From assembly GCA_913060875.1 (NCBI GenBank), contig CAJXSL010000001.1, positions 62,001 to 126,000 on the forward strand: a stretch of DNA of 64,000 bases. Direction: 5' to 3'. The translations under genes were made by a program, and so were the position numbers. Origin of the DNA: an uncultured Desulfobacteraceae bacterium. Its GTDB lineage: Bacteria; Desulfobacterota; Desulfobacteria; Desulfobacterales; UBA5852. The notes beneath the pieces were generated by a model that made no database searches, was not told where the DNA came from, and saw only the letters and a program-made list of their open reading frames with translations. Every line of letters starts with the position of its first letter. The first letter of the stretch is position 1. Positions 2,692 through 6,744 of the stretch are shown here, piece after piece.

Positions 2692-4317
2692 CTATATCGT
2701 ATACAACACCACCAGACAGCGGGTGGGGTCGCCGGACAGGCTTTTCAGGCGGTGGGGAATGTAGGAGTTGAAGTGGATGTGCTCGCCGGCTTTGAGAACA
2801 TGGGCCTTCCGGTCCAGGGTCAATTCCAGTTCGCCAGCCATGACGAAGATGAACTCTTCCCCCTCGTGTTTGTAGGCCACCGGCTTGTGGGCCCTGTGGG
2901 GTTCGATGGTCACCATAAAGGCCCGCAGGTGGTCGGCTTCACTGCCTTCGGTGAGGGTTTGGTAGGCGTAATCCTGGGTGCGTCGGACATAGGCTTCCAG
3001 CCGGCGGTCGCGGATGGCCACCTGTTCTTCCTTGCGCAGGAAGGTGCCCGGATCGACGTCGAGAGCGGTGGCCAGGCGTAGCAGGAAGCCGACCGGCGGA
3101 GAGATGGCATTGGCTTCCACCTGCTGAATGAAGTCGGGTGTCTGGCCGGTAGCCTCAGCCAGGGCCTCGATGCTCCAGGCATGCCCCTCCCTTAATTTGC
3201 GGATGCGGGTGCCGAAGGCGTCATCATGCTCGCCTTCGATTTCGGCCTCGCAGAGGACATCGGCCAACTGCCGCATGACGGCCTGGCGGGCGCGTTCGAT
3301 CAGAACCGGCAGGAAGTCATGTGCGTCGGCCACGATGGCCACATCCGCCATCTGAAATATGGCGGCCCCCGGGTCGCGGTTGACGGCCACGATGATATCG
3401 GCCTCCATGATGCCGGCTGTGTACTGGCTGGCGCCGGACGTGCCGATGGAAATGAGCAGGCGGGGCGCCACGCTTTTGCCGGTCTGCCCGATCATGCGGG
3501 CCCCCTCCACCCAGTGCTGGAGCACCGGTGGCCGGGTGGCCCCCACTTCGCCCCCCAGGACGGCGGCCAACTCCCGGACGCTGCGAAAAGCCTTGACGCT
3601 GCCCAGACCGGCACCGCCCACAACGACAATTTCGGCATTTTCCAGTTGCCGCTGGGAATCGGGTGCCGGACGGGAATCCACCAGGCGAAGGGCCGGGGTC
3701 TCGGGCAGGTGATCGACGGTGGCACGCCGGATGTCGGTGGCCGGTGTTTCAACGGGCTTGGCCTGGCAGCAGTGGGGCTGAACTGTGGCAAATCCGGTTC
3801 CCCAGCCTTCTGCAAATGTAATTTCGGAGACAATGGTGCCGCCCCAGGCCGGGCATGCTCCGATGATGCGGCCGTTTGCATCGGCGTAAAGATCCTGGCA
3901 GTCGGCTATCAGACCGGCTTGGCACCGCAGGGCCGCACGGGCTGCCATTTCACGGCCGAAATCGGTCAGGGCCAAAAGGACGAGGCCGGGTTTTTCGTTC
4001 CGGACGGCTTCGGCCAGGGCTTCGGCAAAAAGATCGGCCCGGGGGAGCGAAAACTGATCGTGTTCCAGCACCTGCACCTGATCGGCACCGTGGGCCAGGC
4101 AGGCCGTTTCGACGGAGGTTGCCAGGCCGCAGGCATCCCCTTCGGCAGCCGTCAAATGGACACCCCCCGACGGGGCCAGCAGGCAGGCCACCGTTTGCCC
4201 TCCCAGGGCGACAGCCAGTTCACGTGCTTTCGCGAGGATATTGAGCGAGTAGCCGAACAGGCGGTTGCTGCGGCAATCCATGAACACCCAGATGCTATTT
4301 GTCGTTTGGGCCGGCAT
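2692..4317 (-). CDS. etfA: EtfA (electron transfer flavoprotein alpha) fused to XRE HTH and cupin domains
   Basis: The 541-residue protein starts at the ATG overlapping the etfB stop (TGATG at 4315-4319); a longer in-frame extension is inside etfB and unlikely. Residues about 1-320 are EtfA: an N-terminal Rossmann-like part and the FAD-binding C-terminal part with GQTGKSVAPRL, SIGTSGASQYTAGI and the IVAVNRDPGAAIFQMAD segment. Residues about 367-427 are an XRE-type helix-turn-helix (RIRKLREGHAWSIEALAEA, then IQQVEANAISPP). Residues about 465-541 are a cupin with HEGEEFIFVMAGELEL and GEHIHFNSYIPHR. XRE-cupin regulators commonly sit beside CoA-ester genes; having one covalently joined to EtfA is unusual. 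ETF function with the neighbouring acyl-CoA dehydrogenase is expected; what the regulator half binds is unknown. Confidence 0.88.
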   Translation of the reverse strand: MPAQTTNSIWVFMDCRSNRLFGYSLNILAKARELAVALGGQTVACLLAPSGGVHLTAAEGDACGLATSVETACLAHGADQVQVLEHDQFSLPRADLFAEALAEAVRNEKPGLVLLALTDFGREMAARAALRCQAGLIADCQDLYADANGRIIGACPAWGGTIVSEITFAEGWGTGFATVQPHCCQAKPVETPATDIRRATVDHLPETPALRLVDSRPAPDSQRQLENAEIVVVGGAGLGSVKAFRSVRELAAVLGGEVGATRPPVLQHWVEGARMIGQTGKSVAPRLLISIGTSGASQYTAGIMEADIIVAVNRDPGAAIFQMADVAIVADAHDFLPVLIERARQAVMRQLADVLCEAEIEGEHDDAFGTRIRKLREGHAWSIEALAEATGQTPDFIQQVEANAISPPVGFLLRLATALDVDPGTFLRKEEQVAIRDRRLEAYVRRTQDYAYQTLTEGSEADHLRAFMVTIEPHRAHKPVAYKHEGEEFIFVMAGELELTLDRKAHVLKAGEHIHFNSYIPHRLKSLSGDPTRCLVVLYTI

Positions 4318-5093
4318 CAGTCGAGCAACCCTTTCTCCGTCCATTGCTGGATCAACTGGTCGGTGATAGCGGCCGGCTCCCCTTCGAGGAACTGGCATTG
4401 GCGCTCACGCTTGCAGGGCTTCAGGGAAACCACACGGGTGGGGGAGCCCGTTTCGCCGATTTCTTCCGGCGTCAGATCAAGGTCGGCCAGCCCGAGGGTT
4501 TCCACCGCCTGGTCGTCGAAGGCCTGGGCCAGTCCCGCCAGCTCGATGTCCCGGGGCGGGCAGATGTCCGGCCGGACAGTCAGCGCGGCCGGGAAATCGA
4601 TCTCGAAAGATTCCACCAGATGATCCATGGTGCGTTCCACCTGCAGGTGATTGTCGGCGGGCCGGAAGGCGTGGACCCCGGTCACCAGGGGCAAGTCCAG
4701 GGCCACCGCTGTTTGCGGTCCCACCTGGCCGGTATCGCTGTCCGCCGTGCGGGTGCCGTAAAGCACCAGATGATAGGGAGCCAGTTTCCGAATGGCGGCT
4801 GCCAGAGTTGTAGAAGTGGCCAGGGTGTCGGCGCCGGCCAGGGCCGGATCGCTGGCCAGCACGGCGCGATCGGCGCCCATGGCCAGGGCCTCGGCCAGGA
4901 TGACACGGCCGGTGGGGGGACCCATGGATAAAACGGTCACACTGCCGCCATAGTGAGCCTTCAACTGCAAGGCCGTTTCCAGGGCCGGCAGGTCGAACGG
5001 ATTGAAGCGATTGTTGGCCGTCGAGCGCACGATCCGGCCCCGGGGGGCCTGGGCCACGACGGCTTTGATACAGACGATTGTGTGGAACGTCAT
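4317..5093 (-). CDS. etfB: Electron transfer flavoprotein beta subunit EtfB
   Basis: The 258-residue EtfB carries the typical NxFNPFDLPALE, VLSMGPPTGRVILAEALAMG, ADRAVLASD and TADSDTGQVGP signatures of the nucleotide-binding domain. The start is placed at the ATG of MTFHTIVCIK (5093), preceded by GAAGGAAAG; the frame stays open upstream but runs into a dispersed repeat fragment. It forms the heterodimer with the downstream EtfA fusion (stop/start overlap TGATG) and receives electrons from the acyl-CoA dehydrogenase encoded upstream in the same operon. Cytoplasmic, delivering electrons to ETF:quinone oxidoreductase or, if confurcating, to a lactate-type dehydrogenase. Confidence 0.92.
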   Translation of the reverse strand: MTFHTIVCIKAVVAQAPRGRIVRSTANNRFNPFDLPALETALQLKAHYGGSVTVLSMGPPTGRVILAEALAMGADRAVLASDPALAGADTLATSTTLAAAIRKLAPYHLVLYGTRTADSDTGQVGPQTAVALDLPLVTGVHAFRPADNHLQVERTMDHLVESFEIDFPAALTVRPDICPPRDIELAGLAQAFDDQAVETLGLADLDLTPEEIGETGSPTRVVSLKPCKRERQCQFLEGEPAAITDQLIQQWTEKGLLD

Positions 5094-5114
5094 CGCCAGC
5101 TTTCCTTCGTTTGG

Positions 5115-5170
5115 ATCTAAACCCCCTTGGCGAGGGCGGTATGAGGCTTTCCGCTTTGCGGGAGGCGCCT
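5115..5170. repeat. Fragment of dispersed repeat family B
   Basis: In the 135-bp gap between the acyl-CoA dehydrogenase and etfB, the stretch with CCCCCTTGGCGAGGGCGG and TTCCGCTTTGCGGGAGGCG resembles the right half of the elements at 49681-49795 and 57270-57382. It probably forms a small hairpin in the operon leader. Confidence 0.45.
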
Positions 5171-5228
5171 CACAAACGGTTGCCAAACCCGACCGAATGG
5201 CTCCCGCGTCGCTTTTTCCCGTTGTGGA

Positions 5229-6377
5229 TCATCCCATCGATTGCAATACGGATCGGGCGATGACCATTTTGTGAACCTCCGAGGTGCCTTCGTAAATCCG
5301 GGTGACCCGGGCATCCCGGTAGAAACGCTCCACGGCATAGGCTTTGGAATAACCATACCCGCCATGAATCTGTACGGCCGCGTCCGTCACCTGGCAGGCG
5401 ATTTCGGAAGCGAAGAGCTTGGCCATGGCCGATTCCTGGCCAAACGGCGCGTTTTTATCTTTCAATTCGGCGGCGCGGTAGACCATGAGCCGGGCGGCCT
5501 GAATTTGGGTGGCCATGTCGGCGATCATCATTTGCACGGCCTGGTGGTTTTCGATAGGAGTGCCGAAAGTCCGGCGCTGCCGGGCATACTGCACGGCTTC
5601 CTCCAGGGCGCCCTGGGCTATCCCCACCGCCTGGGCGGCGATGCCCATGCGGCCGGTATCCAGGGCGGCCATGCCGATTTGCAGACCCTGTCCCGCCCGG
5701 CCAATCAAATGATCACGGGGCACCCGGCAGTCGTAAAGCCGGATGGAACTGACCGGATTGGCGCGCATGCCGCACAGGTTCTCCAGGTCGCCCACCACGA
5801 AACCCGGCAGGCCCCGCTCCGCCACCACCACGCTGATGCCCTTGCGGCCGGCGGCCGGGTCGGTGCGGGCAAAGATCAGGCAGATATCAGCCACACCGCC
5901 GTTGGTGACGAACACCTTGTTGGCATTGAGGATATAATCGTCACCGTCGGCAATGGCTGTGGCGCTGACGGCGCCGGCATCGGAGCCGGCATTGGGTTCG
6001 GTCAGGCAGAAGGCGCCGATTTTTTCGCCCCGGGCCATGGGGCGGACCCAACGCTCTTTTTGACGATCGGTGCCGAAGGCCATCAGGGGATACACCGCCA
6101 CGCTGTTGTGCACCGTGACGCACAACCCCATGGCCGCGCAGACCCGTGAAATTTCTTCGATGATGATGGCATAACTGACAGCATCCAGGCCGGCCCCGTC
6201 CATGGTCCGGGGAACCTGGATGCCGAAATAGCCCAGCCCGGCCATTTTTTCCACGATATCCCAGGGGAACCGGGCTTCCTGGTCGATCTCGGCTGCAATG
6301 GGGCGCAGTTCGCGTTCACAGAAGGTCCGTACACTGCGCCTTACGGCAATATGTTTGTCGGCCAGAAGCTTATCCAT
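5229..6377 (-). CDS. Acyl-CoA dehydrogenase
   Basis: A 382-residue FAD-dependent acyl-CoA dehydrogenase catalysing alpha,beta-oxidation of an acyl-CoA thioester and passing electrons to EtfAB encoded downstream. Visible features: the FAD/substrate segment CLTEPNAGSDAGAVSATA, VTNGGVADICLIFART, the helix with RTFGTPIENHQAVQ, the QIHGGYGYSKAYAVERFYRDAR stretch (split for reading) and the active-site loop IYEGTSEVHK with the catalytic Glu. Length is typical for short/medium-chain members. The ATG at 6377 (MDKLLADKH) is chosen because it has CAGGA upstream and begins the family's N-terminal helix; the upstream 16 residues of open frame are not family-like. Likely first gene of an acd-etfB-etfA operon. 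Confidence 0.93.
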   Translation of the reverse strand: MDKLLADKHIAVRRSVRTFCERELRPIAAEIDQEARFPWDIVEKMAGLGYFGIQVPRTMDGAGLDAVSYAIIIEEISRVCAAMGLCVTVHNSVAVYPLMAFGTDRQKERWVRPMARGEKIGAFCLTEPNAGSDAGAVSATAIADGDDYILNANKVFVTNGGVADICLIFARTDPAAGRKGISVVVAERGLPGFVVGDLENLCGMRANPVSSIRLYDCRVPRDHLIGRAGQGLQIGMAALDTGRMGIAAQAVGIAQGALEEAVQYARQRRTFGTPIENHQAVQMMIADMATQIQAARLMVYRAAELKDKNAPFGQESAMAKLFASEIACQVTDAAVQIHGGYGYSKAYAVERFYRDARVTRIYEGTSEVHKMVIARSVLQSMG

Positions 6378-6744
6378 TGACGTATCCTGTGGAACGGGCT
6401 GGGAGCAGACCAAATGCCCGTGCACCCGATTGTCGAAAGGGTGCAGATATCAATATTTCAACGACACGTCAAATCCGCTGAACCGCGCGAGGGACAGAAC
6501 ACCCCTGTCATTTCGAAATACCTGGCGTATGGGAAACCGGATACTCATTGATAATGAATGCTTTTCCCTGGTTTGGGCGAATTTTTTGGCCTTTCGAGGG
6601 GCGGTCATTATCGCCGCGCTACAGCGGAAAAAAATTATCTAAAAAAATAATGGTGTGTTGGGGCGGAAGGCATGTTGTCAGTGGTGTGGATGGCACTGCT
6701 TTTGCTTTACTTTCAGAACGTTGGTGTTGGAAAGGAGATCCGCA
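6378..6744. other. Divergent intergenic region with leaders of both flanking units
   Basis: These 367 bp separate the leftward acyl-CoA dehydrogenase operon from the rightward PEP-CTERM-like gene. Besides the sigma-54 promoter near its right end (listed separately) I see no gene. It is clearly more AT-rich than the neighbouring genes. Confidence 0.5.
6691..6706 (+). promoter_or_regulatory. Sigma-54 (-24/-12) promoter
   Basis: TGGCACTGCTTTTGCT matches the RpoN consensus TGGCACG-N4-TTGCW at every invariant position, with the GG and GC dinucleotides at the required 10-bp spacing. The predicted start is about 12 bp downstream of the GC (near 6717), giving a leader of about 28 nt before the ATG at 6745. 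No activator gene is adjacent; the only sigma-54 activator in the window is at 31201-32583. Confidence 0.72.

Follow-up and report, generated by a model that had tools for sequence, protein, structure and literature searches.

Electron transfer flavoproteins (ETFs) are usually viewed as carriers that are steered by whichever dehydrogenase docks with them, and the extensions known on their alpha subunit, EtfA, for example in CarE and LctC, are N-terminal ferredoxin-like domains. In trigger enzymes such as PutA, BirA and NadR, a single polypeptide joins a metabolic protein to a fold that binds DNA, of helix-turn-helix (HTH) or another type. A different pairing is found in HppE, the (S)-2-hydroxypropylphosphonic acid epoxidase, which holds an HTH and a cupin in a single chain and has His/Glu/His as its metal positions.

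Within the window, by which we mean the whole stretch of 64,000 nucleotides that was analysed, we find an EtfA protein that resembles each of these and matches none. With the EtfA of A. fermentans (4kpu) and C. difficile (5ol2), CarE (6fah) and LctC (7qh2) it has in common both Pfam domains, the FAD-site residues, an EtfB partner and a dehydrogenase gene in the operon; it differs from them in adding an XRE-cupin module at its C terminus and in having Tyr or Phe at position 299, where most unfused proteins have His. Like the trigger enzymes, it combines metabolic and DNA-binding-type folds, but its surface argues against DNA binding, and like HppE it has an HTH and a cupin in one chain, although the sequence match is very weak (E 0.0099) and the fusion operon offers no phosphonate context. 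The XRE-cupin regulators PsdR, PauR and ErfA, as the available part of their description presents them (PMC7901475), share with it the order of HTH then cupin, and its free relatives, too, adjoin enzyme genes; by contrast with these regulators, the fusion protein has an ETF, has lost a basic stretch and has a more acidic recognition segment, and no shared palindrome has been established for it. In the literature searched, which included few subscription papers, we found no description of an EtfA-XRE-cupin fusion or of a free XRE-cupin/acyl-CoA dehydrogenase pair, and the fusion is not described in the accessible portions of PMC5109826, PMC5373536, PMC7901475, PMC12565409 and PMC5861303. ETFs are known, as are XRE-cupin regulators and fusions of enzymes with regulators; it is their combination here for which no description was found.

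The fusion gene, its operon and its distribution

Positions 2692-4317 of the window hold a single uninterrupted frame on the reverse strand, 541 codons long plus its stop. The initial annotation had called this gene an EtfA-XRE-cupin triple fusion, and a Pfam search bears this out, placing all the domains it had named (ETF_alpha, HTH_3 and Cupin_2) over the gathering score within the one 541-residue frame: ETF at residues 10-195 (1.4e-19), ETF_alpha at 224-303 (2e-25), HTH_31 at 367-423 (8.9e-10), HTH_3 at 372-424 (8.3e-8) and Cupin_2 at 468-537 (2.2e-15). The protein carries PF01012 and PF00766 together, both over the gathering score, as expected of an ETF alpha subunit, and also the XRE HTH followed by Cupin_2 that marks an XRE-cupin regulator.

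Read along the protein, and thus backwards along the window, EtfA domain I comprises residues 6-214 (3676-4302; Pfam PF01012 and comparison of model m0bb7292fe68f with 4kpu_A) and the FAD-binding domain II residues 224-345 (3283-3648; Pfam and alignments). A linker that is variable in the alignment (residues 346-366; 3220-3282) leads into the XRE HTH domain, residues 367-430 with five predicted helices (3028-3219; Pfam, the model and a VIA-align match to 3zkc_B), whose recognition helix, PDFIQQVE, is placed by alignment and model at residues 394-401 (3115-3138). The Cupin_2 domain, with H484, E488 and H522, closes the chain at residues 447-541 (2695-2979; Pfam and alignments). The predicted structure of the fusion protein (mean pLDDT 83.4, pTM 0.59) shows, in order, EtfA, an HTH of five helices (368-426), a long helix (429-446) and a beta barrel; its EtfA part aligns with the solved EtfA 4kpu_A over 331 residues (Z 32.3, rmsd 5.1) and its barrel with the XRE-regulator cupin 6b8w_A over 93 (Z 15.0, rmsd 1.8). 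Judged by eye, Met348 is a candidate internal start that may give a free XRE-cupin product.

The gene is the last of an acd-etfB-etfA operon, as had been proposed from the start, with all three genes on the reverse strand: acd, for an acyl-CoA dehydrogenase, at 5229-6377 (Pfam), and etfB, for the ETF beta subunit, at 4317-5093 (Pfam and PDB matches), whose TGA stop overlaps the etfA ATG (TGATG). The best acd start is the ATG at 6377, where the starts of acd relatives align, so that 6378-6744 lies upstream of the operon's first gene. The 135-base stretch between acd and etfB (5094-5228) does not fold above its shuffles (z -0.57). Next to the operon, at 1-2426 and on the opposite strand, lie GlcD and Fe-S genes; across the 60 fused loci described below, at E 1e-10, the GlcD gene (1-1091) is matched nowhere and the CCG gene only once (L026), and these genes stand outside the conserved acd-etfB-etfA unit. 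Between them and the operon, a repeat of about 210 bases (2480-2691) borders directly on the fusion gene's stop codon; it has 48 BLAST matches at about 40 places in its own genome and ends that resemble inverted repeats (GTGTCCGTCCATAAATGG and CCATTTATGGATGGGCAC), and we regard it as a putative MITE-like element.

The architecture recurs widely. In a scan of one genome per species over 84,980 species, counting as fused any locus whose frame starts ahead of query residue 80 and continues past residue 500, 60 loci in other genomes have the fusion among the best 80 of 132 relatives; two of them, L008 and L040, share one assembled genome, and the 60 represent at most 59 genomes. Most are filed under Desulfobacterales, Desulfobacteraceae or unplaced Deltaproteobacteria, and a few under Syntrophaceae, Smithellaceae, Myxococcota, Fibrobacterota or Proteobacteria. 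The frame reaches the end of the protein in 57 of the 60, runs off the contig inside the cupin, in frame, in L031 and L040, and is broken near residue 507 in L036. The concern that relatives might carry separate reading frames is mostly answered by these counts, and an artefact in which a missed stop or frameshift joins two genes is ruled out by the 57 whole frames together with the two in-frame run-offs. Broken copies of the fusion occur in L036 and in G234 (L156), where either sequencing error or decay may account for the break.

The operon travels with the fusion. Upstream of it, etfB (at least 35% identity) is found in 56 of the 60 loci and acd (>50% identity) in 54; etfB is absent despite room in L051 and L054 and acd in L016, L051, L052 and L054, and in L026 and L028 the contig edge leaves no room for either. 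L051 and L054 are thus EtfA-XRE-cupin fusions with neither an adjacent etfB nor a fused-type acd.

Within the window's order the fusion is present in 34 of 242 sampled genomes, in one frame in 33 and in two in G234, the next matches being EtfA-only proteins at about 320 bits vs >700 for fusions. It is present in 18 of 297 genomes sampled across the phylum, judged by frames of 527-578 residues: that sample gave 86 matches, the 40 places retrieved from them comprised 38 free and 2 fused forms, and the remaining long frames were called EtfA fusions by length, or by the order-sample matches in the case of G000 (the window's own genome), G071 and G113. Among the five genomes of the window's genus only G000 has it, which indicates a patchy distribution.

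Free XRE-cupin relatives and the origin of the fused part

Among the matches listed, those closest to the fused part are free XRE-cupin proteins, about 190 residues long. We collected 64 loci of this free form: the phylum sample supplied 38, the first scan 20 and the genus 4, and 2 lie beside unfused operons. Counts of free forms leave aside L063, L065 and L077, which are cut by contig ends. In 54 of the 64, a set that contains near-copies such as L078-L080 and L082, the free gene directly adjoins a same-strand gene for an acyl-CoA dehydrogenase, which lies directly downstream in 46 and directly upstream in 8; the other 10 have it in neither place. Loci that lack such a neighbour are L187-L190 and L192 in the phylum sample (5 of 38) and L067, L068, L070, L071 and L055 in the first scan (5 of 20). 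The window's own genome, of 5.9 Mb, has only 24 such dehydrogenase hits, and the paralogue that comes closest to the window's acd (44%, 370 bits; the next has 297) is the one beside its free XRE-cupin copy, on contig C26. The pair is common in the phylum (L002, L102-L104, L187-L226 and others), and we flag it as a common gene unit; in L002, a 3-hydroxyacyl-CoA dehydrogenase gene precedes the free XRE-cupin gene.

Operons of the same type also occur unfused. We fetched 13 loci with an acd-etfB-etfA operon whose acd is 58-62% identical to that of the window, and in two of them (L142 and L146) a free XRE-cupin and dehydrogenase pair lies divergent to the operon. The existence of free relatives beside dehydrogenase genes, and of operons that lack the fusion, suggests that a dehydrogenase-linked XRE-cupin was captured by EtfA.

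Phylogenies of the separate parts fit more than one history of that capture. A single branch of the XRE-cupin tree (93/80; 92% of 200 bootstraps) has the 61 fused rows all on one of its sides, within free rows that are mostly dehydrogenase-linked. In the EtfA tree, which omits L110-L139, the distant fused loci L061, L062 and L064 (five rows, L205 being the same DNA as L064 and L206 the same as L061) group with 16 unfused rows (0.918). A single fusion with later loss and two separate fusions would both fit these trees. The dehydrogenase tree joins the fused-operon and XRE-cupin-linked enzymes against other paralogues weakly (0.471), with L205 and L206 wrongly labelled as partners of free XRE-cupins. 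Alignment A1 omits L024, L031, L036 and L040.

ETF site, cupin pocket and the surface of the HTH

The ETF part of the fusion protein retains the residues that we take to form the FAD site of EtfA domain II: R262, Q278-T279-G280, S294-G295-A296 and Q298 are invariant in 57 aligned fused rows, and R262, Q278, T279, G280, S294, G295 and Q298 are found in all 64 fused EtfA rows of a larger comparison (62 distinct). Two other positions change with the fusion. Position 299, presumably the equivalent of human alpha-His286, near the flavin, is occupied by Tyr (57 rows) or Phe (7) in the 64 fused rows, whereas it is His in 20 of 24 rows counted as unfused, and His268 is present in all 64 fused rows vs 1 of the 24, which include L156, a broken fused copy; this contrast indicates that the ETF site differs with fusion. 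The best PDB matches of EtfB are bifurcating complexes (5ol2, 7qh2, 6fah, 4kpu and 7koe), with E 8e-41 to 4e-33 for the EtfBs of such complexes and 6e-20 or weaker for all others, values from which the cofactor cannot be read. The XRE-cupin part is attached at the end of domain II, which, according to the accessible part of PMC5861303, is the mobile, alpha-FAD-carrying domain of ETF.

Conservation among the fused rows is uneven. Mean pairwise identity is 0.69 in the cupin (15 of 95 columns invariant) and 0.67 in EtfA domain II (21 of 122), vs 0.53 in the HTH (3 of 64) and 0.38 in EtfA domain I (5 of 209). In the cupin pocket, R446, Y452, Y482, H484, G486, E487 and E488 are invariant across 61 fused and 61 free rows; H522 is present in all 61 free and 58 of the 61 fused rows (the other three being gaps), Y450 in 121 of the 122 (61 and 60) and H463 in 119 (61 and 58). 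Of these, we take H484, E488 and H522 to occupy the metal-ligand positions of cupins (2-His-1-Glu). In 19 other XRE-cupins H484 is kept in 16 and E488 in 19, while R446 occurs in 2, H463 in 4 and Y482 in 4; the near absence of these last three suggests that the pocket is particular to this group.

Such a pocket raises the question of catalysis. The XRE-cupin part might itself be an enzyme, with a mononuclear metal site and the HTH as its lid, as in HppE, acting on an acyl-CoA substrate or product. Consistent with this, the three metal-type positions are kept in fused and free forms, Foldseek places HppE, HEPD, MpnS and Psf4 within its 50 best matches to the XRE-cupin model, and there is the weak sequence match to HppE. 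HppE, an iron enzyme, however, ranks just after the Vibrio regulator 1y9q in the structural search, and 1y9q, a named regulator, is also placed above it where its sequence match is concerned; the two-domain Foldseek matches have a large rmsd (10-17). Moreover, cupins without catalytic activity commonly have His/Glu/His triads, an oxidant is required for HppE-type chemistry, and the fusion has many hosts that belong, we assume, to strictly anaerobic groups. On this evidence we regard a catalytic cupin as improbable. More improbable still is a part that only dimerises the ETF or holds the dehydrogenase and senses nothing: cupins and XRE domains do commonly dimerise, and the overlap of the etfB stop with the etfA start suggests coupled translation, but a scaffold would not need a nearly invariant polar pocket of metal type.

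The HTH, for its part, is retained as a fold and altered at its surface. By VIA-align its model superposes on DNA-bound SinR (3zkc_B) with Z 11.2 and rmsd 1.0 over 62 residues, and on the P22 repressor (2r1j_L) with Z 11.9 and rmsd 1.2 over 65. The recognition segment (residues 393-408), by contrast, has a mean net charge of -3.15 in fused rows (n=61) vs -1.31 in free rows (n=61; Mann-Whitney p 3e-11), and the 16 residues before the HTH (before G369) average +2.03 in free rows vs -1.77 in fused ones (p 3e-18), while the charge of the whole HTH differs modestly (-1.92 fused vs -0.21 free, p 0.02); these are averages over related sequences, and the tests ignore phylogeny. For comparison, 33 HTH_3 domains (of 44 loci) from the window's own and related genomes, found with a profile built from the XRE-cupin family and including the genome's own free XRE-cupin, average +0.21 in this segment, with two as low as -3. 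Some free forms are acidic as well (L022 at -6, L081 at -4). So are the recognition segments of two other XRE-cupins of the same genome, L095 at -3 and L099 at -2 (contigs C14 and C3), and XRE-cupins that do not bind DNA in the usual manner may form a larger group in these bacteria.

We favour, tentatively and at somewhat less than an even chance, the reading that the fusion protein is a working ETF alpha subunit with a captured XRE-cupin whose DNA face is largely lost and which serves as a post-translational sensor gating domain II. The protein would be the active EtfA of a dedicated acyl-CoA dehydrogenase-ETF system, and its C-terminal part would descend from a free XRE-cupin already tied to the same kind of dehydrogenase. 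After fusion, the DNA-binding face, and with it DNA binding, would have been largely lost and the pocket kept. The cupin, probably dimeric and probably metal-bearing, would sense either the redox state or a small pathway metabolite, for instance an acyl or enoyl compound; its ligand or metal state would then set the freedom of the mobile domain II, and through it the flow of electrons between EtfB and the dehydrogenase. We prefer this explanation because conservation of the cupin equals that of the FAD domain and exceeds that of the HTH, because the charge features of DNA binding fade in the fused rows, because free XRE-cupin genes so regularly adjoin dehydrogenase genes, and because the fusion point is the end of the mobile domain, in an ETF whose site differs with fusion. 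The full historical sequence, in which a dehydrogenase-linked transcription regulator was captured by its pathway's ETF, abandoned DNA and turned into a gate on the FAD domain worked by a ligand or metal, we consider rather unlikely when taken as a whole.

If a gate of this kind exists, a widespread and conserved ETF with its own sensor would give anaerobes direct control over a branch point, possibly where acyl-CoA oxidation is critical for energy. One regulator occurs free, adjacent and fused with one kind of enzyme, and this makes the step from regulator of a gene to regulator of a protein testable. Several points weigh against gating of domain II. Decay alone would not be expected to leave the HTH with its complete fold and with stronger conservation than EtfA domain I. 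The charge contrasts are phylogeny-blind averages, small for the whole HTH, and some free forms are acidic too. In addition, an operator-like repeat lies behind the window's promoter-like element, in a set of leaders where palindromic models stand above shuffles at all widths.

The acd leader and the case for DNA binding

The close and main rival, ahead of the catalytic cupin and then the scaffold, is a trigger enzyme. The fused ETF would bind DNA through its HTH and repress its own operon until the cupin met its ligand or the ETF changed its redox state or partner. We hold this to be quite possible, if on balance doubtful. The intact XRE fold, so close to that of DNA-bound SinR, agrees with it, as do the free relatives beside dehydrogenase genes, which fit the local regulators among Pseudomonas XRE-cupins as far as the available part of PMC7901475 portrays them; the more acidic recognition segment and the loss of the basic stretch before the HTH speak against it.

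The acd leader bears on the same question. At 6447-6472, on the reverse strand, it contains TTGACG-N14-TGATAT, an element whose spacing is kept among leaders: TTGAC[GT]-N14-TG[ACG]TA[AGT] occurs in 14 of 49 leaders, the window included, always with 14 bases between the two parts, L017 and L040 being near-copies among the 14. The pattern is promoter-like and reads as a putative -35 box and extended -10 with 17-base spacing. One base after it in the window begins an inverted repeat, TGCACCC-N11-GGGTGCA, at 6421-6445, a candidate operator; this is the only exact copy in the genome. Its position directly behind a conserved promoter-like element shifts weight away from a gate on domain II and towards the trigger enzyme. 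The same repeat is present in none of the 48 other leaders, which counts against a trigger enzyme.

Motif models fitted by EM to 44 of the 49 upstream regions (with that of the window, but omitting L064, which is distant, and four near-duplicates) point in both directions. Palindromic models of widths 14-22 score 40.4, 46.7, 59.2, 63.1 and 65.6, and the best of three shuffles 39.0, 44.2, 51.6, 51.6 and 58.7; the real set exceeds all three shuffles at every width, modestly (at width 20, 63.1 vs 46.2-51.6), in a comparison that favours it through more starts and iterations. Inverted repeats in 45 leaders are likewise somewhat longer than in shuffles, with arms of at least 7 in 24% vs 13%. Both results lean towards the trigger enzyme, but the palindromic gain is modest beside the promoter-like signal, for which unconstrained models of width 30 reach 182 vs 110-114 for shuffles, and the real set was searched harder than the shuffles. 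As they stand, the palindromic models give no clear shared dyad in the 44 leaders, which is not to say that a dyad is absent.

The initial annotation had envisaged an ETF that binds DNA and controls transcription of its own operon. Of that proposal, the kept fold, the regulator-like free relatives and the inverted repeat behind the promoter-like element, inside the 6378-6744 region that the annotation had singled out, stand in its favour; it is weakened by the acidic recognition segment, by the acidic linker that replaces the basic arm and by the want of an established shared operator. Judged by its predicted surface, DNA binding by the fusion protein is possible and not favoured. Other leaders carry different short repeats in the same place: in L010, L018 and L024 the promoter-like element is followed by CTGCAACAGC, in L053 by CTGCAGCAGC and in the window by CTGCACCC. 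No operator has been established as shared across species, and species-specific operators in the acd leaders are possible.
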